From a virus: DNA of 31,670 bases. The stretch is from the IMG/VR virus record IMGVR_UViG_3300025153_000017, positions 1 through 31,670 of that record; one strand, given 5' to 3'. The notes beneath the pieces are model-generated. The model was not told where the DNA came from, did no database searches, and worked only from the letters and a program-made list of their open reading frames with translations. Position numbers and translations under genes: made by a program. Shown here piece by piece: positions 645 through 15,855 of this stretch; the stretch's first letter is position 1, and each line of letters starts with the position of its first letter.

Positions 645-980
645 ATGAACGATACATTAACAGAAGAAGAAGTAATCACTATTAATCAGGGCCGGAGCCG
701 GTCCCCATATTTCTGCATCATCCAACCAGTGCCAGGAATAAAGCTTAATGTCGGCCAGCCTTTACGATGTAAGAATCCAAAAACAAACCAGGTAACTACT
801 GGTATTGTCACAGAACACTTCTGGACGTTCGACTGGGATGAGATGCCCGTTTGGGTAGAAGTTAAACTGCTGGAATGTTACGGAGTTGCACCACAATTGC
901 TCAGAATGGTTCTGAAGGCATCCGATTCCGGATTTAATGACAACTGGGCACGACTAATACTAATCCGCGAAACTATTTGA
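645..980 (+). CDS. Hypothetical 111-aa protein ahead of the primase
   Basis: This is a 111-residue beta-rich protein with a small-barrel appearance; residues around 30-60 (LNVGQPLRCKNPKTNQV) look like a PUA/ASCH-like or SH3-like barrel, but this is only an impression. It lies four bases before the primase-helicase gene and is surely co-transcribed with it, so a role in early DNA metabolism is possible. No catalytic motif is visible. Confidence 0.6.
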   Translation: MNDTLTEEEVITINQGRSRSPYFCIIQPVPGIKLNVGQPLRCKNPKTNQVTTGIVTEHFWTFDWDEMPVWVEVKLLECYGVAPQLLRMVLKASDSGFNDNWARLILIRETI

Positions 981-984
981 AATT

Positions 985-3900
985 ATGATTATTAAAGAAG
1001 CAATAGACAGGTTAAAAGAGAATATCGTTGAAGTGGTAAGTCACTATGTTGAACTAAAATCACATGGCCGCACTCACGAAGGTTGCTGCCCATTTCACAA
1101 CGAAAAAACAGCATCATTTAAGGTTTCGGAGTCGAAGGGTGTATTCAAGTGTTTCGGTTGTGGTGAGGGTGGTGATGCCATTGCCTTTATTATGAAGCAT
1201 GACCATGTTGAATTCATGGAAGCGCTAAAGATAGGTGCCCGGAAACTAAACCTACAGGTTGATTGGAACGAAGAGAAGAAAGATTTTAATGTAGTTGAAT
1301 ATCAGCATAAGGAATCGCTTCGGATCCTTTGCGGGAAGGTGGCCACCTATTACCAGCAATGTTTACGCGATAGCAAAACAGCATCAGATTATATCGCCAG
1401 CCGCCAATTTAAGATTGATGAAGTTCCGGAGGATGATCTGTTGATGATCGGGTATGCTCCTGCAGGAAATGTATTGCTGAAGTGGGCAAAGGAAAACAAT
1501 ATCAATCTTTCACTTATGAAGGAGGCCGGGCTGATTGACCACAGTACCGAACGCAACCAGGACTATGACTTTTTCAGAGACCGGATCATGTTCCCTATCT
1601 GCGAAAAGACGGGTAAGGTGATCGGGTTTACCGGTCGTGCGATCGTTGATAAAAAAGGAGTGGCCAAGTATATGAATTCGCTCGATACGGAGATATTCTG
1701 CAAAGGGAATGAGTTATATGCGCTGAATGTAGCCAGACAACCAATCAGGGTAGAAAGCCGGTTGTATATGGTTGAAGGGAACTTCGATGTGAAGCGCCTG
1801 CATTCGATTGGAGTATTCAACGTTGTGGCGCCTTGTGGAACAGCGCTCACTGTCGATCAGATCAGGTTACTTAAAAACTACACTAAAAATGTGACGATTA
1901 TCTACGATGGCGACGATGCCGGGCATAAGGCAATCGACAGAAATGGAGATCTGCTTGTTAGAGAGCAATGCAATGTGATGGTGATGGAGATCCCCAAAGG
2001 TGAAGATCCTGATACACTTTTTACTTCACTGGTGAAATTTGACGAATTCAAAGAGAAAAACCAGACCGACTACATCATTTATAAGACTAAAAACGGGATT
2101 GACAAATGCAAAAACCCCGCCTTTAAATCTGAGTTTATGAAGGATGTTGCCTCACTTATTATGCGTTACGATGAGCCAAGCGTTCATGAAGTTTACCTCG
2201 ACTTTGTTTCTGCCATCATCAAGCCAAAGAAAGCATGGCAGGATTATCTGAAGAACATTGCATCCGATAAGGCTCCGGTTGAGAAAAAACGCTACATCCC
2301 TGAAGGAATATCAGCTGCTGACCTTGCTGAACAGGGATTCTACGTTGAAAACAATTGTTATTTCTTCAAGAACAAGGAGGATTTTGTTCAGCGCAGTAAT
2401 TTTTCACTGTCACCAATTTTCCACATCGAGAGCACAATAAATGCCAAGAGGCTATATGAGGTAACCAACAACTCAGGAATGACACGTGTAGTTGAGATTC
2501 CTCAAAAGGATATGATCGGCCTGGCTGCCTTTAAGCTGCATGTTGAGAGTTTACCAAAATGCTGGTTTGATGGCTCTGAGACTGACCTTAATCGTTTGAA
2601 AAGGTGCTTGTTTGAGAAAACAGAATCCTGTAAGGAGATTACACAGCTCGGGTGGCAAAAAGAAGGTTTCTGGGCATGGGGAAACGGTATTTTCAATGAT
2701 GAATTTGTGGGGGTTGATAGTTACGGAATTGTGAAACACAACAAACGGAACTACTATATACCTGCATTTTCGAGCATTTATAACAATGAAGATAATCTGT
2801 ATCAATTTGAACGTAAGTTTATTCACATCGAAGGAAACGTTACACTGAAAGAATATGCAGCCAAATTTGTAAAGGTATTTGGCGACAATGCTAAGATCGC
2901 GCTGTGCTTCTACTTTGCATCGTTATTTCGGGATATCATCGTTGGTGGAACCGGCAATTTTCCAATCCTGAATATGTTTGGTCCAAAAGGTGCCGGTAAA
3001 ACAGCCTGTGCCGAAAGCATTGTGCAGTTTTTTGGAAGGCTGGCCAAGGCTCCAAATGTTCACAATACCAGTAAGGCTGCCCTGGGCGATCATGTTGCAA
3101 GTAGTTGTAATGCCATTGCTCATATCGATGAATACCGCAATGACATCGAGATGGAGAAACGTGAGTTCTTAAAGGGAATGTGGGACGGGACTGGGCGTAC
3201 CAGGATGAATATGGAAAAGGACAAGAAGAAAGAAACCACATCAGTTGATCAGGCAGTTGTACTTACCGGCCAGCAGATGGCCACTGCCGACATAGCGCTT
3301 TTCAGTCGTTTTATATTCCTGTCGTTTACGCAAACGGAATTCAGCGAAGAGGAAATTATTGAATTCGATAAACTAAAAGAGATTGAAAAACGTGGATTGA
3401 CCCATATTACTCACCAGGTGTTAAGGCTTAGGGGAGCATTTAAGGACAATTACCTCACAAAATCAAAGAAGATAACCGAAGATATGCGCGCCCTGATGGG
3501 TAATGAGATCGTTGAGACCAGGATTTTCAATAACTGGATGAAACCAATGGCAGCTTATGCTACGCTGAACGAACATCTTGAATTGCCATGGGATGAGCAC
3601 GAAACGATTAAGCTGGCAGTAAGGCTGATGATTGCTCAGAATAAAGAAACCAAGAAGAATGATGACCTTGGCAATTTCTGGAAAGTGATTCAATATCTGA
3701 TATCATCCAATGTATTATATGAGGATGGTGATTATAAGGTAGTGTATGAAGACAAGATAACACGACGATATTTTGAGAATGGAATCTGGAGGAAAGAAAC
3801 TAAACACCTGGAGGGTGGTGCCTATGAATTGCTATATCTAACCACAAGCAGGGTATTCAGTCTTTATAAAACTCAGTGTCTGCGTGAAGGTGATAAGCCA

Positions 3901-4182
3901 TTGCCTGAATCGACCATCGAGTATTACCTGCGCAATTCAGCAGCTTTCGTTTGCGAGACAAAGAAGGAATCGTTCAAGAAAATAGATCCCAAAACAGGCG
4001 CCCAGGAGAGTGATGATTCCGGAGCAAAGAAACGGACAAGTACTACGGCGCTGATCTTCTATGTCGCAAAGACAGGATTGATGCTTGGAGCAACAGATCC
4101 TGCCGGAGGTGTAATGAAGGATGCCTCCGAAGGTGTAATTAATTTTCCTGGTGATGCGGTTAAAGTTGATTTACCGTTTTGA
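985..4182 (+). CDS. DNA primase-helicase: CHC2 zinc finger, Toprim, P-loop ATPase
   Basis: This 1065-residue protein probably makes RNA primers and unwinds DNA at the phage fork. The N-terminus has a DnaG-type CHC2 zinc finger (C35-x2-H38, C56-x2-C59). The primase catalytic part follows, with Toprim motifs EGNFD (E264) and DGDDAG (D308, D310). The C-terminal half holds a P-loop ATPase: Walker A GPKGAGKT at 666-673, Walker B-like AHIDEY with D715 and E716, a polar sensor-like VVLTGQQ, and an arginine in LFSRF. The ATPase resembles SF3/DUF927-type phage helicases more than the RecA-like DnaB fold of T7 gp4, but I cannot settle the family. DnaG proteins are typically about 600 residues, so the extra length fits the fusion. 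The stop is followed directly by the candidate origin. Confidence 0.9.
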   Translation: MIIKEAIDRLKENIVEVVSHYVELKSHGRTHEGCCPFHNEKTASFKVSESKGVFKCFGCGEGGDAIAFIMKHDHVEFMEALKIGARKLNLQVDWNEEKKDFNVVEYQHKESLRILCGKVATYYQQCLRDSKTASDYIASRQFKIDEVPEDDLLMIGYAPAGNVLLKWAKENNINLSLMKEAGLIDHSTERNQDYDFFRDRIMFPICEKTGKVIGFTGRAIVDKKGVAKYMNSLDTEIFCKGNELYALNVARQPIRVESRLYMVEGNFDVKRLHSIGVFNVVAPCGTALTVDQIRLLKNYTKNVTIIYDGDDAGHKAIDRNGDLLVREQCNVMVMEIPKGEDPDTLFTSLVKFDEFKEKNQTDYIIYKTKNGIDKCKNPAFKSEFMKDVASLIMRYDEPSVHEVYLDFVSAIIKPKKAWQDYLKNIASDKAPVEKKRYIPEGISAADLAEQGFYVENNCYFFKNKEDFVQRSNFSLSPIFHIESTINAKRLYEVTNNSGMTRVVEIPQKDMIGLAAFKLHVESLPKCWFDGSETDLNRLKRCLFEKTESCKEITQLGWQKEGFWAWGNGIFNDEFVGVDSYGIVKHNKRNYYIPAFSSIYNNEDNLYQFERKFIHIEGNVTLKEYAAKFVKVFGDNAKIALCFYFASLFRDIIVGGTGNFPILNMFGPKGAGKTACAESIVQFFGRLAKAPNVHNTSKAALGDHVASSCNAIAHIDEYRNDIEMEKREFLKGMWDGTGRTRMNMEKDKKKETTSVDQAVVLTGQQMATADIALFSRFIFLSFTQTEFSEEEIIEFDKLKEIEKRGLTHITHQVLRLRGAFKDNYLTKSKKITEDMRALMGNEIVETRIFNNWMKPMAAYATLNEHLELPWDEHETIKLAVRLMIAQNKETKKNDDLGNFWKVIQYLISSNVLYEDGDYKVVYEDKITRRYFENGIWRKETKHLEGGAYELLYLTTSRVFSLYKTQCLREGDKPLPESTIEYYLRNSAAFVCETKKESFKKIDPKTGAQESDDSGAKKRTSTTALIFYVAKTGLMLGATDPAGGVMKDASEGVINFPGDAVKVDLPF

Positions 4183-4286
4183 TTTTTTGGTAAACCCCCC
4201 GCACCCCCCGATAGAAAAAACCAGTTAAAAGCAAATTTGAGCAATTGATAAAAACGTATTAATTTTTTAGACATTGTAAACATTTA

Positions 4287-4523
4287 CTTACTTCGCTTAC
4301 TTCGGTACTTTTTTTAATAATAATCTAATACTTAAAATAATGATATATAATAAAATAAATATCAAAAATAGCGAAGTAAGTGCTTACTTTTCGTTTCTTC
4401 GCTTACTTCGCCTTACTTCGATTTTGAAATTTTACAACAAATGATATTTTCTTACTTCGCCGTTTTTCGCCTGTATTAAAATAACAGTCAATTAATTAAC
4501 ATCTGCGAAGTAACAGAAGTAAG
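4287..4523 (+). repeat. Iteron-like array of the 9-mer CTTACTTCG
   Basis: Perfect copies lie at 4287-4295, 4296-4304, 4402-4410, 4412-4420 and 4451-4459 on the + strand and at 4372-4380 on the - strand. One-mismatch copies on the - strand occupy 4506-4514 and 4515-4523, and degenerate copies lie near 4383-4401. Several are tandem with 9-10 bp periodicity, and 4372-4393 forms an inverted pair. Such arrays usually bind a replication initiator or repressor. The array directly follows the primase-helicase gene. Confidence 0.8.
4306..4370. other. Very AT-rich tract between iterons (candidate unwinding element)
   Basis: About 65 bp of almost pure A and T sit between the first iteron pair and the inverted iteron pair. 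An easily melted segment next to iterons is the usual layout of a replication origin. The remainder of 4183-4655 contains only a short C-rich patch at about 4193-4210 and more AT-rich DNA, with no credible gene. Confidence 0.4.
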
Positions 4524-4655
4524 CGAATCCACTAAAATACGTCCTCAGTCCAGAAAAATATTTTTTTTTGCTTAAAACAGGGCAAAAACACCTAAATTGC
4601 GGAAAGAGCTATCAAAATAATCCAATTTTTAATAACGTTAAAATTTTTGCCTGCT

Positions 4656-4880
4656 ATGAAATCCAAAAAATTAACACCTAAAATCAAAACAAATGTTGTC
4701 TATTACCTGAAAAAGAAACATCCCATTTTTATTACTGAAAAAAATGAAAACGAAAAGATAATGATTGATAGGATTGATAATTTTGATATTTTATATGGCC
4801 ACTTTGTCGATGATGCTAACGTTACTTTCTTCATTGCAAAAGAGGATTTTAGTAAAATTTTTCAATTCAAACCATCTTAA
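4656..4880 (+). CDS. Hypothetical 74-aa protein
   Basis: The protein is 74 residues from ATG 4656 (MKSKKLTPKIKT). An in-frame TTG at 4647 is a weaker start. It is lysine-rich at the N-terminus and then alternates hydrophobic and acidic residues in a beta-like pattern, compatible with a small nucleic-acid-associated fold, but no motif is diagnostic. It stands alone between the iteron array and a promoter. Function unknown. Confidence 0.5.
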   Translation: MKSKKLTPKIKTNVVYYLKKKHPIFITEKNENEKIMIDRIDNFDILYGHFVDDANVTFFIAKEDFSKIFQFKPS

Positions 4881-4897
4881 TTTGCAATATTATTTTA

Positions 4898-4927
4898 TTG
4901 TAACTTAAGCAAAAATTTATATCTTCG
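4898..4927 (+). promoter_or_regulatory. Bacteroidota-type promoter
   Basis: TTG at 4898-4900 is followed after 19 bp by TATCTTCG at 4920-4927. This fits the Bacteroidota -33/-7 arrangement (TTTG, 19-21 bp, TAnnTTTG) with one mismatch. It would start transcription about 30 bases before the ATG at 4962. Confidence 0.55.
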
Positions 4928-4946
4928 CATGTTCCCACCACAGCGG

Positions 4947-4970
4947 GGGTTTCATTAACCCATGAAACCC
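4947..4970 (+). promoter_or_regulatory. Leader hairpin enclosing a start codon
   Basis: GGGTTTCAT (4947-4955) and ATGAAACCC (4962-4970) are perfect reverse complements separated by six bases. In RNA this 9-bp stem would bury the ATG at 4962. It may regulate translation, or show that the real start is the in-frame ATG at 4980. Confidence 0.5.
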
Positions 4971-5489
4971 TATACTCCTATGAATACACGTCCTCAAATC
5001 GTCATCACGTTGAATCCATTACTCGAATCGTATTGCCGTTTGGTTTTTGGTACCGATCCTAATGTGAAAGAAATTGCGCTCCGTAAAAACTACGACATTG
5101 CTAAACTAATTCACTCGAACGTGATCAGTTGCGATGCTCCCGATCGTCGGTCTTTTATTTCCAACCCGGTTACGTTTATTTTGCCGGTAGATAAGATCAA
5201 CCATCACGACCTGCAGTTTCACTTCCTGCATGTGAATCCCTGGGGAGAGCAAAAGATCGTTGAAGGTATCGAATATGAATTCAGACGATGGATTACCCAG
5301 CGTTTCGATAAAGGATACGATATGGGCTATTCTCAAAAGATCATTGTAGAAGCAATCGTTCGGGGGCTGAATGTTCGGAATAATGCCGCGAATTTCGATG
5401 CCATCAAGAAAATCGACTACCGTCACAGGCGAAAAACAGAGGAACGACGGTTTAATGAGCTTTTAAAGGAGTGTCAAGAATTTGAATAA
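4962..5489 (+). CDS. Conserved-looking hypothetical phage protein
   Basis: There are 175 residues from ATG 4962, or 169 from the in-frame ATG at 4980 (MNTRPQIVITL), which may be the true start because the first is inside a hairpin stem. The protein is soluble-looking: a beta-type N-terminus (IVITLNPLLESYCRLVFGT), a central region with FILPVDKINHHDLQFHFL, and a basic helical C-terminus (RHRRKTEERRF) that could contact nucleic acid. It has its own promoter at 4898. From memory it resembles unassigned proteins of Bacteroidota phages, but I cannot name a function. Confidence 0.7.
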   Translation: MKPYTPMNTRPQIVITLNPLLESYCRLVFGTDPNVKEIALRKNYDIAKLIHSNVISCDAPDRRSFISNPVTFILPVDKINHHDLQFHFLHVNPWGEQKIVEGIEYEFRRWITQRFDKGYDMGYSQKIIVEAIVRGLNVRNNAANFDAIKKIDYRHRRKTEERRFNELLKECQEFE

Positions 5490-8079: not shown

Positions 8080-8640
8080 ATGCCTGTAAATTTCGCAAAC
8101 TTAGACTGGGTTGACGGGCAAGTGTCCGTCCCCGGTATTTACCCGGAGCTTTACTTTGTTCCTAAATCACAGATCGTCACCTGGCCACAGTTCGCTGCGG
8201 CTCCTGCTACAACAGCAGCTGAAGTAACGCTGGCCGGAAATTTCACGCTGGCTGCTCTTGCAGTCTGGAAGAAAATCAACTGTATCGACGTTAAGTCACA
8301 GCCAACTTCCGAACAGCAGGGAGAAATCCGTTGCAAATCGTACAATAACAAATTGAAGGTTGTAGTATCGCTCACCAACGAAGATGCAACAGCGCTTGCC
8401 AAATTGGCCGGGAACTCAGACCTGATTTTTATCTTCCAGGAGCGTGACTCGGGAAAGTATCGCGTTGTCGGATCGGAAAAATTTGCAACCCTCACCAAGG
8501 TAACGCTTGATATTGGCGGCAACCCAACCGGGGAGAAGGGAACAACCCTTGAAATCGAAGCCGCAGACATTTGCCCATTTCCATTCTATGACGGTTTGAT
8601 AACCGACAGCGTTGGAATCGTGAATCCTGCGTCAGTATAG
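8080..8640 (+). CDS. Putative structural protein, tail-tube- or decoration-like
   Basis: This 186-residue, strongly beta-patterned protein begins eight bases after the capsid gene. It contains an Ala/Thr-rich stretch (about 38-60), a segment VVVSLTNEDATALAKLAGN, and a C-terminal GTTLEIEAADICPFPFYDG. The Gly/Thr-rich strands and the linkage to the capsid gene suggest an abundant virion component. A major tail protein or head decoration protein are both possible. It is the last gene before a strong terminator, closing the head operon. Confidence 0.6.
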   Translation: MPVNFANLDWVDGQVSVPGIYPELYFVPKSQIVTWPQFAAAPATTAAEVTLAGNFTLAALAVWKKINCIDVKSQPTSEQQGEIRCKSYNNKLKVVVSLTNEDATALAKLAGNSDLIFIFQERDSGKYRVVGSEKFATLTKVTLDIGGNPTGEKGTTLEIEAADICPFPFYDGLITDSVGIVNPASV

Positions 8641-8660
8641 ATGGTTTTTCAGTTCACTTT

Positions 8661-8688
8661 AAAAGGCAGCCTCAGGGTTGCCTTTTTT
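8661..8688 (+). terminator. Rho-independent terminator of the head operon
   Basis: The stem pairs 8661-8671 with 8676-8686 (11 bp including one G.U pair) around loop TCAG, and a run of T extends to 8688. It ends the protease-capsid transcript and abuts the degenerate phage promoter at 8689. Confidence 0.85.
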
Positions 8689-8723
8689 GTCCTTCGATGG
8701 TAATTACTAAAATATCACCTTTA
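8689..8723 (+). promoter_or_regulatory. Degenerate phage-type promoter
   Basis: GTCCTTCG at 8689-8696 keeps six of eight bases of the phage motif. Exactly 19 bp later lies CACCTTTA, two mismatches from TAnnTTTG. Position (14 bp before a gene start, right after a terminator) supports it, but the sequence alone would be weak. Confidence 0.4.
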
Positions 8724-8736
8724 ATAAAAAAATACT

Positions 8737-9660
8737 ATGGAACTTCAAGAATGGTTTGAATCAAAAGATTACGGTATCGGTCTCAGTTTACTCGGTACAC
8801 ATTGCAAAAACAGAATGCTCCTCCAAAACTTAGGACGTAAACCTAATCCGGAGAAGCTGGAGTATGAACTCCTTAAGATCTGCAAAGAGCAGGGAATCGT
8901 TATTGATGGCATCGAAGAGACTGACAAAACGAATGAAATAAAAGAGTTCAGTCCTAACCTCCCACAACCGCTGCAGGATGATTTGCAATCGCACAGTGAT
9001 CAGGTAATCGATCAGATGAATGCCAAACTGGAGTCGGATGCCGATGATATTGTATCGGATAAGATTTCAGACCTGCAATCAGATGCTGATGATATCGTAT
9101 CGGATAAACTTTCGGACATGGAGTCGGATGCCGATGAGATTGTATCTGATAAGCTGAAAGAACTGGAAGTAGCAGCCGAAGAGTTGTTGACAGGAAAACT
9201 GAAAGTAATTCGTAATGGTCATGAGGTGAATTACACTGATCTTCCTAAAGAACTAAGGGTTGCCTGGGATGCGAACCGTGATGCCTACAAAGAGATCAGG
9301 GCCACGCATGAAAAGCTGAAACTGATGGAGAATGCCAAAGATGAAGACCGGGCACCATTGGTCCAAAACATCGCCAAACTCGATGATAAGATCCGTATTA
9401 ATTGGGAAGCAATTGACGGTTGGAAACAAGGTGATGCACCAATCATTGAAAAGGCAGTGGAAATAGACCATAAACGGATCAATGCAAATCGCAAATTCAT
9501 CTCCACCAACTTGAAAACATTGCTTACAATAACCGATGAGGCTAAAGCGGTTGCAATCAAAGCAAAGATCCAGGAGCGGTATGATGAGCTGAAAAATGCC
9601 GGTGAGGCCGTTCAACCCGAAACAATTGATGAACTGACAAAAGCAGGGATTCAATGTTAA
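8737..9660 (+). CDS. Helical protein with 15-residue repeats, unknown function
   Basis: The 307-residue protein has an N-terminal globular part (1-80) and a repeat region at 85-159 with units such as SDADDIVSDKLSDME. The rest is charged and helical (160-307) with likely coiled coils. The repeat is acidic and amphipathic, suggesting a rod or oligomerising stalk. There is no signal peptide, membrane segment or catalytic motif. It sits between the head operon and the small terminase gene behind its own weak promoter, which fits a virion or assembly protein. I do not recognise the family. Confidence 0.65.
   Translation: MELQEWFESKDYGIGLSLLGTHCKNRMLLQNLGRKPNPEKLEYELLKICKEQGIVIDGIEETDKTNEIKEFSPNLPQPLQDDLQSHSDQVIDQMNAKLESDADDIVSDKISDLQSDADDIVSDKLSDMESDADEIVSDKLKELEVAAEELLTGKLKVIRNGHEVNYTDLPKELRVAWDANRDAYKEIRATHEKLKLMENAKDEDRAPLVQNIAKLDDKIRINWEAIDGWKQGDAPIIEKAVEIDHKRINANRKFISTNLKTLLTITDEAKAVAIKAKIQERYDELKNAGEAVQPETIDELTKAGIQC
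8989..9213 (+). repeat. Five 15-residue (45-bp) tandem repeats inside a gene
   Basis: Residues 85-159 fall into five units of 15: a degenerate first, three close copies at 100-114, 115-129 and 130-144 (SDADDIVSDK...), and a diverged fifth. The three close copies span 9034-9168. The DNA differs mostly at third positions, which suggests selection on the protein repeat. Confidence 0.8.
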
Positions 9661-13119: not shown

Positions 13120-13683
13120 ATGAATATTCAGAAATTTAAGTTTGGTGATGTTGAGATCGAGTTTGATCTCCGTCAAGGGGAAAACATGATGGTAAATGCT
13201 ACCGAAATGGCAAAGGTTTTCGAAAAAGATTTATGGTCATTTACAAAAAGCGATCACGCGAGAGCTTTTATTCAGTCATGTTTAAAACCTCCATATGGAG
13301 GTTTATTAGGTGTAAAATCGGAAGAAGATTTGATTTCTTCCAGCCAAAAATCCGGGACATGGATGCATCAAGTTTTAGCATTAAAATTTGCTGCCTGGTT
13401 AAATTCAGATTTCGAAGTTTGGGTTTATATCACCATAAAAAGTTTATTATATGAATTTGCCCGCGAAATTCAAGACTCAATCAGTGAAACTGTATCGCTG
13501 CAGCGACAAAAAGATGATATAAAGAACCAGCTTGCAAAACGCGAACCTGATTTCTTGGAATATCTCTCAATTGAACAAAAATTAATTAATGCCCGTAGCC
13601 GTCGCAGTAACGCCACAAAGAACAAATTTAGGGAGACAATGGAAGATTTATTTTCACAAAAAGGAAAGGAAGAAAAGCAATGA
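13120..13683 (+). CDS. KilA-N domain protein
   Basis: The 187-residue protein has an N-terminal KilA-N domain (about 1-105): a beta-rich start, MMVNATEMAKVF at 23-34, LWSFTKSDHARAFI, and TWMHQVLALKFAAWLNSDFEVWV near the end of the domain. KilA-N is a DNA-binding fold common in phage regulators and antirepressors. Residues 110-187 form a charged coiled coil (SLQRQKDDIKNQLAKRE), probably for oligomerisation. It has its own -7 box and overlaps the next gene by four bases. A lysogeny or antirepressor role is inferred, not shown. Confidence 0.85.
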   Translation: MNIQKFKFGDVEIEFDLRQGENMMVNATEMAKVFEKDLWSFTKSDHARAFIQSCLKPPYGGLLGVKSEEDLISSSQKSGTWMHQVLALKFAAWLNSDFEVWVYITIKSLLYEFAREIQDSISETVSLQRQKDDIKNQLAKREPDFLEYLSIEQKLINARSRRSNATKNKFRETMEDLFSQKGKEEKQ

Positions 13684-14875: not shown

Positions 14876-15415
14876 ATGGACAAATTCACCTATAATGAGC
14901 AAAAGGCTGTTGCTGCAGTATTGCTGGTTGTAAACGAGCTTTCCAGCGTCGACAGACACAAAATTGCAAAGATCCTTTTCTTTGCCGATCAAAAACACCT
15001 CGCCAGATATGGCAGAACAATTACTTCCGACTTCTATTGCGCGATGGAAGCCGGTCCGGTTCCTTCAAACATCTACGATTCGATAAAGGTTATTGCACAC
15101 GAACGCAATTTTTATAACCACCATGGTCTTGAAGGTAAAATAGAAGTCCGGGGAAGAGAAATAACCGCGCTTGAAAAACCCGACATTGATCAGTTATCGA
15201 TTTCGGATATGGAATGCCTGGTTGAATCGATCAATGAAAATTCGAAGCTTACCTACGGACAACTCATTGACAAATCGCATGGACCGGCATGGCAGAGCGT
15301 TCCCGACAATCAGTTAATTCCATTTACAGAGATCGCCAAAGAAGTTTCGGCACCTGCTGAAATTCTTGAACTTATAAATTCGAACCTTCAGGCCGAGGAA
15401 CTCTTAAGTTTATGA
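14876..15415 (+). CDS. Panacea (DUF4065/SocA-like) antitoxin-type protein
   Basis: The 179-residue protein shows the hallmarks of the Panacea domain: KILFFADQKHLARYG at 32-46 and AMEAGPVPSNIYD at 56-68, then a long helical C-terminus including KSHGPAW near residue 140. Panacea proteins include the SocA adaptor of Caulobacter and the PanA antitoxins that neutralise unrelated toxins encoded next door. The next gene overlaps by four bases, the standard antitoxin-toxin arrangement. It has its own promoter and a strong terminator after the second gene, so the pair is an autonomous cassette inside the phage. Confidence 0.8.
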   Translation: MDKFTYNEQKAVAAVLLVVNELSSVDRHKIAKILFFADQKHLARYGRTITSDFYCAMEAGPVPSNIYDSIKVIAHERNFYNHHGLEGKIEVRGREITALEKPDIDQLSISDMECLVESINENSKLTYGQLIDKSHGPAWQSVPDNQLIPFTEIAKEVSAPAEILELINSNLQAEELLSL

Positions 15416-15855
15416 GTAGCCTCAGGGACTCCCTTTCTGCCGGAGGTTTAAGAAATTTAATCGCCTCACAAATACAGCCTGGCGCTGTATTTGTAATTTT
15501 AGACCCAATCGCAAAAAAGGAAAAGTTTATTGTGATCTTAGGTATCGATGCCGGTAAGATCTGGGTGGGAACCCTGTTCATCAACAGCGAAAAGAATGTG
15601 AATTTCATCAAGTCGCTGGAACAACATGGTTTGCAGTTTATAATAAAAGCATCCAACTACGAATTCCTTGATTACGATTCCTTTATTAATGCCTCGAATA
15701 TCATCAGGCGTGAGTTTGAAAAGCTGGTTGATATTATAATTGCCAGAGATGGAAGATATTTAACGCACATCATTCCCAATGACTTCGATTACATCAGGCA
15801 AAAATGGCAGATTCGAAAGTCGTTTCAACCGCCGACAAAAAAGACTTTGGATTAA
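15412..15855 (+). CDS. Candidate toxin partner of the Panacea antitoxin
   Basis: The 147-residue protein has no signal peptide or obvious membrane segment. Residues 22-57 are strand-rich (QPGAVFVILDP, EKFIVILGI, KIWVGTLFI), and 82-125 contain FLDYDSFINAS and a further helix. This recalls the small-barrel PemK/MazF-like toxins, whose barrel begins with a PGDxV-like strand, but no catalytic set is certain. Function as a toxin is inferred from the ATGA overlap with the Panacea gene. It could instead be an unrelated regulator or a substrate bound by the Panacea protein. Confidence 0.6.
   Translation: MSSLRDSLSAGGLRNLIASQIQPGAVFVILDPIAKKEKFIVILGIDAGKIWVGTLFINSEKNVNFIKSLEQHGLQFIIKASNYEFLDYDSFINASNIIRREFEKLVDIIIARDGRYLTHIIPNDFDYIRQKWQIRKSFQPPTKKTLD

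Follow-up and report, generated by a model that had tools for sequence, protein, structure and literature searches.

In SaPI replicons, the C-terminal domain of the Rep protein reads iterons that lie directly downstream of the rep gene (PMC7581432), and oppositely oriented repeats recruit two head-to-head hexamers (PMC9894130). The P4 alpha protein joins a primase, a helicase and a winged helix that binds origin repeats (PMC4234260). The pRN1 protein ORF904 is likewise a multidomain primase-helicase with a C-terminal winged helix and an origin just past its gene, although its origin consists of a 100-nt stem-loop and has no iterons, and its primase is other than the Toprim kind (PMC4234260). 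SaPI5 Rep, which carries a fused primase, also ranks among the closest known systems.

We analysed a viral record of 31,670 nucleotides (the window; IMG/VR IMGVR_UViG_3300025153_000017), in which a preliminary description had placed a candidate iteron origin after the gene for a primase-helicase. With the SaPI systems and the SCCmec systems with Cch or Cch2, the locus shares an initiator helicase, iterons directly downstream of its gene and opposed repeats: in the window, a helicase of Rep/Cch fold is followed, 105 bp past its stop codon, by iterons whose outer double units lie on opposite strands. In contrast to the SaPI replicon, which is a satellite, the replicons described here belong to phages, apparently of Bacteroidota, that encode capsid and tail proteins themselves, and the window encodes a ClpP-type head protease, an S74 tail fibre and a glucosaminidase. 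It also differs from SaPIbov1 Rep in that a DnaG-type primase (CHC2, DNAG_N, Toprim) is fused before the Cch/SaPIbov1-like helicase. A Toprim-type primase and a helicase in one polypeptide are shared with P4 alpha (PMC4234260), and a winged-helix-like domain that would bind repeats, as in P4 alpha, is proposed here; in the window, the fusion was recognized from the Pfam Toprim and zinc ribbon matches and from the model of the helicase half. The best fold match was nevertheless to Cch and SaPIbov1 Rep, P4 alpha not being among the structures compared. P4 has a second cis site, crr, with the same iterons. No counterpart of crr was found, as three copies of an 8-mer were the most that any other 700-bp tile held across the 31.7-kb window, in a record that may be incomplete. 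Our literature search returned no account linking iterons, primase and replication origin in Bacteroides phages. We regard the locus as a probable origin of a known kind in phage form, to which a family-wide pattern is added: the plan stays fixed while the iterons change.

The iteron array and the primase-helicase

The match positions and shuffles confirmed that six perfect and several near copies of CTTACTTCG, in both orientations, cluster within about 240 bp, as had been claimed (Table 1). With at most one mismatch, CTTACTTCG occurred 12 times in the whole window, eight of them inside the array, against a mean of 4.93 and a largest count of 11 in 100 dinucleotide shuffles. When any 9-mer was counted, the densest exact 9-mer per 300 bp reached six copies in the window, and in 200 first-order shuffles it reached two copies in 164, three in 34 and four in 2. 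The 9-10 bp phasing was borne out by the pairs 4287/4296, 4402/4412 and 4506/4515, and the tract of nearly pure A+T by the composition of the spacer. Inverted repeats are indeed present, but not as the one inverted pair originally described: three units are inverted (4372, 4506 and 4515), so that the array is bounded at its two ends by double units of opposite direction. Since the outer pairs are oppositely oriented (4287/4296 on the plus and 4506/4515 on the minus strand), the outer double units face one another across the array. Degenerate units at 4383 and 4393 enlarge the inner cluster beyond its earlier description. Along the direction of the primase gene, the order is thus a double unit, the A+T spacer, an inverted unit, the cluster with about 10-bp spacing, the element AAATTTTACAACA, a single unit and an inverted double unit.

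Table 1 Features at the primase-helicase locus, in window coordinates.
Feature	Coordinates	Strand	Remarks
C4, 111 aa, just before the primase gene	645..980	+	alternative or accessory binder
Primase-helicase, 1065 aa, proposed initiator	985..4182	+	Pfam, PHROGs, model compared with PDB
Proposed iteron-reading C-terminal domain (aa 895-1035) with a winged-helix-like model	3667..4089	+	model pLDDT 96.2
Iteron array, proposed replication origin	4287..4523	.	exact and near copies of CTTACTTCG; position and plan kept in relatives
Left outer double iteron, two exact tandem units	4287..4304	+	CTTACTTCG matches at 4287 and 4296
A+T-rich spacer, candidate DNA-unwinding element	4305..4371	.	67 bp, 89.6% A+T
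Inner inverted iteron	4372..4380	-	exact CTTACTTCG
Inner cluster	4383..4420	+	4383 degenerate, 4393 with 2 mismatches, 4402 and 4412 exact; spacing about 10 bp
Conserved inner element AAATTTTACAACA	4427..4439	+	between the units at 4412 and 4451
Inner iteron	4451..4459	+	exact CTTACTTCG
Right outer double iteron, inverted, two units (4506, 4515)	4506..4523	-	1 mismatch each; exact in L005, L006 and L008
C2, 175 aa, downstream of the array	4962..5489	+	conserved in many relatives; alternative binder

In the primase-helicase, a CHC2 zinc ribbon, a DnaG core (DNAG_N) and a Toprim domain are followed by a helicase like those of SaPIbov1 Rep and Cch. Pfam confined the first three domains to the first third of the protein and named nothing in its long C-terminal part. 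A model of the helicase half (aa 500-1065, mean pLDDT 86.8) was superimposed on 5dgk, the SCCmec Cch (Z 24.4, 419 residues aligned, rmsd 6.5), and on 8tch, SaPIbov1 Rep (Z 20.4, 401 residues aligned, rmsd 7.2), with 11% identity in the structural alignment with the latter; the next-best PDB matches were MCM helicases with Z of about 15. As modelled, the helicase half is an initiator fold of the SaPIbov1 Rep/Cch type. A DUF927 match (best E 3.3e-6) was obtained for 7 of 36 relatives but not, in the Pfam search, for the window's own primase-helicase; DUF927 is a domain of Cch and has been tied to SaPIbov1 Rep (PMC7581432). The model of the C-terminal domain comprises strands, two helices and a long hairpin, and its top fold matches, at low Z of 5.5 to 2.9, were winged-helix DNA binders, those listed including an accessory relaxosome protein on oriT, RFX, Orc1/Cdc6 and forkhead. 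When the domain was searched alone, Foldseek gave no match below about E 0.3, and a PDB sequence search returned just cytochromes c at E 0.27 or worse.

The similarity of iterons between loci was compared with that of primase-helicase segments. Over all 32 aligned loci, it tracked the post-helicase (partial 0.22) and C-terminal (partial 0.28) segments best, with the others near 0. When each close group was represented by a single locus (24 loci), the values were 0.10 for the C-terminal (p 0.14) and 0.12 for the post-helicase segment (p 0.06), and among the 18 loci with at least five copies, covariation with the C-terminal segment was weak and not significant. It was clear in a set of 25 hand-chosen loci, which left out L010, L012, L105, L113, L126 and L135. 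Covariation of the iterons with the C-terminal and post-helicase segments of the aligned proteins is therefore suggestive only.

Both the comparison of relatives and the structural models favour an iteron origin whose reader is the primase-helicase. We consider it probable, at about 0.8, that the array is the origin of a temperate phage, where the C-terminal domain of the phage-encoded primase-helicase reads the iterons and loads two opposed helicases. In the proposed mechanism, this domain would read the 9-bp iterons, the end units, being of opposite polarity, would bring two helicase hexamers into a head-to-head arrangement, the A+T-rich spacer would melt and the fused DnaG-type primase would prime the exposed strands. 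We infer binding of the iterons and origin activity at the array from its layout, its relatives and the predicted fold, and loading of the hexamers and melting of the spacer would follow the same scheme. The GC-skew check put forward in the preliminary description lent no support: cumulative skew had no extremum at the array in any of eight records.

The array tracks the helicase half

The preliminary description had held that loss of the repeats from close relatives sharing the primase would count against an origin. The close relatives found by the primase are L004-L008, whose best segments are 73-100% identical to those of the window; the array was present in L005, L006, L007, L008 and the near-identical L004, and its position, about 105-135 bp past the primase, was kept. 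These relatives share a plan of outer units, a 67-bp spacer of 90% A+T and inner units about 10 bp apart, with the outer units inverted. An 18-mer scan of viral contigs yielded 17 contigs, namely the five of this close group, 11 of a second group and a lone match, L021. Aligned primases of the second group are about 58% identical to that of the window, and their arrays lie 1.2-2.6 kb past the primase, just before C2 wherever C2 was seen; nearness of the array to the primase is therefore not universal. The same scan of genome contigs yielded 25 stretches, which comprised arrays in three Bacteroidota MAG contigs (L043, L057 and L064), a double unit at the edge of contig L054 and a CRISPR spacer (L060). 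The remaining 20 were put aside as single or unrelated matches by local repeat count alone, and three of these (L040, L042 and L053) carry a few extra copies. The core TTTACAACA of the element AAATTTTACAACA, or a close variant, was discernible in most of 12 aligned arrays from both groups and the MAGs.

Remoter relatives carry different iterons at the same place after the primase-helicase, arranged on the same plan. These include CTTACTTTA in L095, GTTACTTAG in L093, CAACTACAA in L009, CTTCTACAA in L099 and CTGCACACAA in L111, among others; the iteron of L094, GTTACATTC, lies about 1.1 kb from the primase-helicase. Some loci, L113, L114 and L126 among them, form a set with a mirrored plan, in which the inner units share the direction of the right outer units. 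The largest gap of the array was richer in A+T than its own locus in 38 of 39 arrays.

Position was counted over 48 loci, which consisted of the window, 11 of the 14 loci of a first primase search and 36 of the 79 loci of a wider search. From the first search, L004 and L007 were left out as duplicates and L016 for its 25% identity; from the wider one, duplicates of contigs or phages already included and loci matching the primase part only were left out. Some of the 48 loci are near copies of each other (for example L103, L104 and L105). Within 700 bp past the primase-helicase stop codon, at least five copies of an 8-mer were found in 24 loci and at least four in 31, while at least five were found in 9 of 688 other 700-bp tiles, seven of these nine tiles sitting 0.7-2.8 kb further downstream of the primase-helicase. 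Fewer than four copies within 700 bp were found at 17 of the 48 loci; some of these have an array further away (the second group, L094 and L125), and none was seen within 3 kb in L013, L014, L015, L103, L106, L107, L112, L115 and L121, the last with little sequence covered. Thirty-five left-out loci were analysed as a separate control set, 33 of them with enough downstream sequence. None of the 28 with a primase ORF shorter than 700 aa, without the helicase half, reached four copies of an 8-mer, whereas three of the five with longer ORFs (at least 700 aa) did. These results indicate that the array tracks the fused helicase half and not the primase.

Neighbouring genes and other readings of the array

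Two genes near the array could encode alternative binders (Table 1). Neither the C4 nor the C2 of the window had a Pfam or PHROG match. Proteins of the C4 family, 98-113 aa long, were seen solely in phages with the CTTACTTCG array, in 12 of 12 loci found. C2 sits between the primase and the head protease, as does C6 of L005-L009, and both carry an FDxIKKxDYR-like motif near the C-terminus; from their sequences, C2 and C6 may be one remote family.

One alternative is that the array is an operator, at which C2, C4 or a repressor, acting as a phage transcription factor, switches expression from early to late genes. The array separates the primase operon from the head genes in the window and in the second group, with C2 as the next conserved gene, and the restriction of C4 to phages with the CTTACTTCG iteron also fits an operator. 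Against it, no C2 was detected close to the arrays of L005, L006 and L008, where C6 is present instead, C4 was not detected beside the L008 array, and relatives without C4 carry arrays of other iterons. No array was found where the primase lacks the Rep-like helicase half, and a scan of positions 4100-5000 detected promoter-like sites at a level near chance (seven found, 4.5 expected) and no terminator. We therefore regard an operator as improbable.

A slightly lower probability still goes to an origin whose iterons are read by C4, C2 or a host factor rather than by the primase-helicase. The position of C4 immediately before the primase gene, in the CTTACTTCG group only, favours such a reader, but C4 was not found with other iterons, and the primase-helicase, which served as the query, is the one gene known to be common to all array types. 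Of the two binders named in the preliminary description, the primase-helicase gained comparative and structural support, while the upstream gene C4 was rejected as a general iteron reader, as it occurs only beside CTTACTTCG arrays and other iterons lack it; it may be an accessory factor.

Two further readings of the array are very unlikely. In the attP of tyrosine integrases, the arm sites are laid out with inverted outer units, and an array of about 240 bp with inverted outer units recalls this layout; among the records searched, 5 of 17 and 10 of 16 have an integrase. Five of the records that bear an array have one, however, and in each of them it lies at least 7.5 kb from the array, even with the record ends joined, which makes it unlikely that the outer double units are arm sites. 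Moreover, in BK068105, a P. gingivalis prophage, the integrase occupies one end of the record and the array, intact and of another iteron, is about 9 kb away from the opposite end, and the integrase of G010 falls outside the cluster of the other four integrases while its iteron is identical nonetheless. An attP was rejected on the distance in the five records and on the intact array of the P. gingivalis prophage record. That the array serves a plasmid-prophage as a centromere-like partition site is no more credible: partition systems also have iterated sites in both orientations, but nine genes around the array, scanned with Pfam and PHROG, gave no match to a ParA or ParB family, and across loci the array goes with the helicase half of the primase.

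Hosts, prophages and origin codes

The MAG contigs that bear the array are labelled Bacteroidia or Bacteroidetes. In a CRISPR array of Mariniphaga sediminis (L060), one of 36 spacers (L060:2206-2241) matches the iteron array, being identical over 27 of 27 bases to the right outer units in L005 and in the MAG contig L043, and over 21 of 21 bases to window positions 4287-4307. The spacer and the MAG labels together indicate that the hosts are apparently Bacteroidota, and the match of a spacer to the repeats means that the origin can also serve as an immune target.

Three or four such initiators can occur in a single MAG. G036 holds four (contigs C7, C19, C72 and C88), of which those on C7, C19 and C72 go with three different iterons and the fourth is an 80% relative of the window's. 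In G287 (contigs C38, C40 and C51), two elements share one iteron, which argues against a private origin code. In three Porphyromonas gingivalis prophages, L209, L210 and L211, arrays of GTCCAACAA or GTCCTACAA that the annotation does not mark lie about 1.4-2 kb past the primase gene; that of L209, at about 8390-8700, corresponds to about 8990-9300 of BK068105. Elsewhere in the window, a SocA/Panacea-domain gene (E 5.2e-22) overlaps by 4 bases a gene for a 147-aa protein without a Pfam match (14876-15855), a possible toxin-antitoxin pair, and positions 13120-13683 encode a KilA-N domain protein (E 9.1e-11).

The analysis places a probable origin, together with its initiator, in a phage group in which the annotated records examined mark no origin, and the SaPI/P4 style of replication start reaches these phages. 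More tentatively, the window may belong to a large unnamed phage family, apparently of Bacteroidota, with SaPI-like origins and a fused DnaG-primase/Rep-helicase, in which the iterons and the reading domain could diversify together, within a fixed origin geometry, into private origin codes; we hold this broader picture to be rather less likely than not to stand in full. The matched series of iterons and reading domains could be natural material for deriving the rules of DNA recognition by such initiators. A private origin code, if true, would keep co-resident prophages from firing each other's origins.
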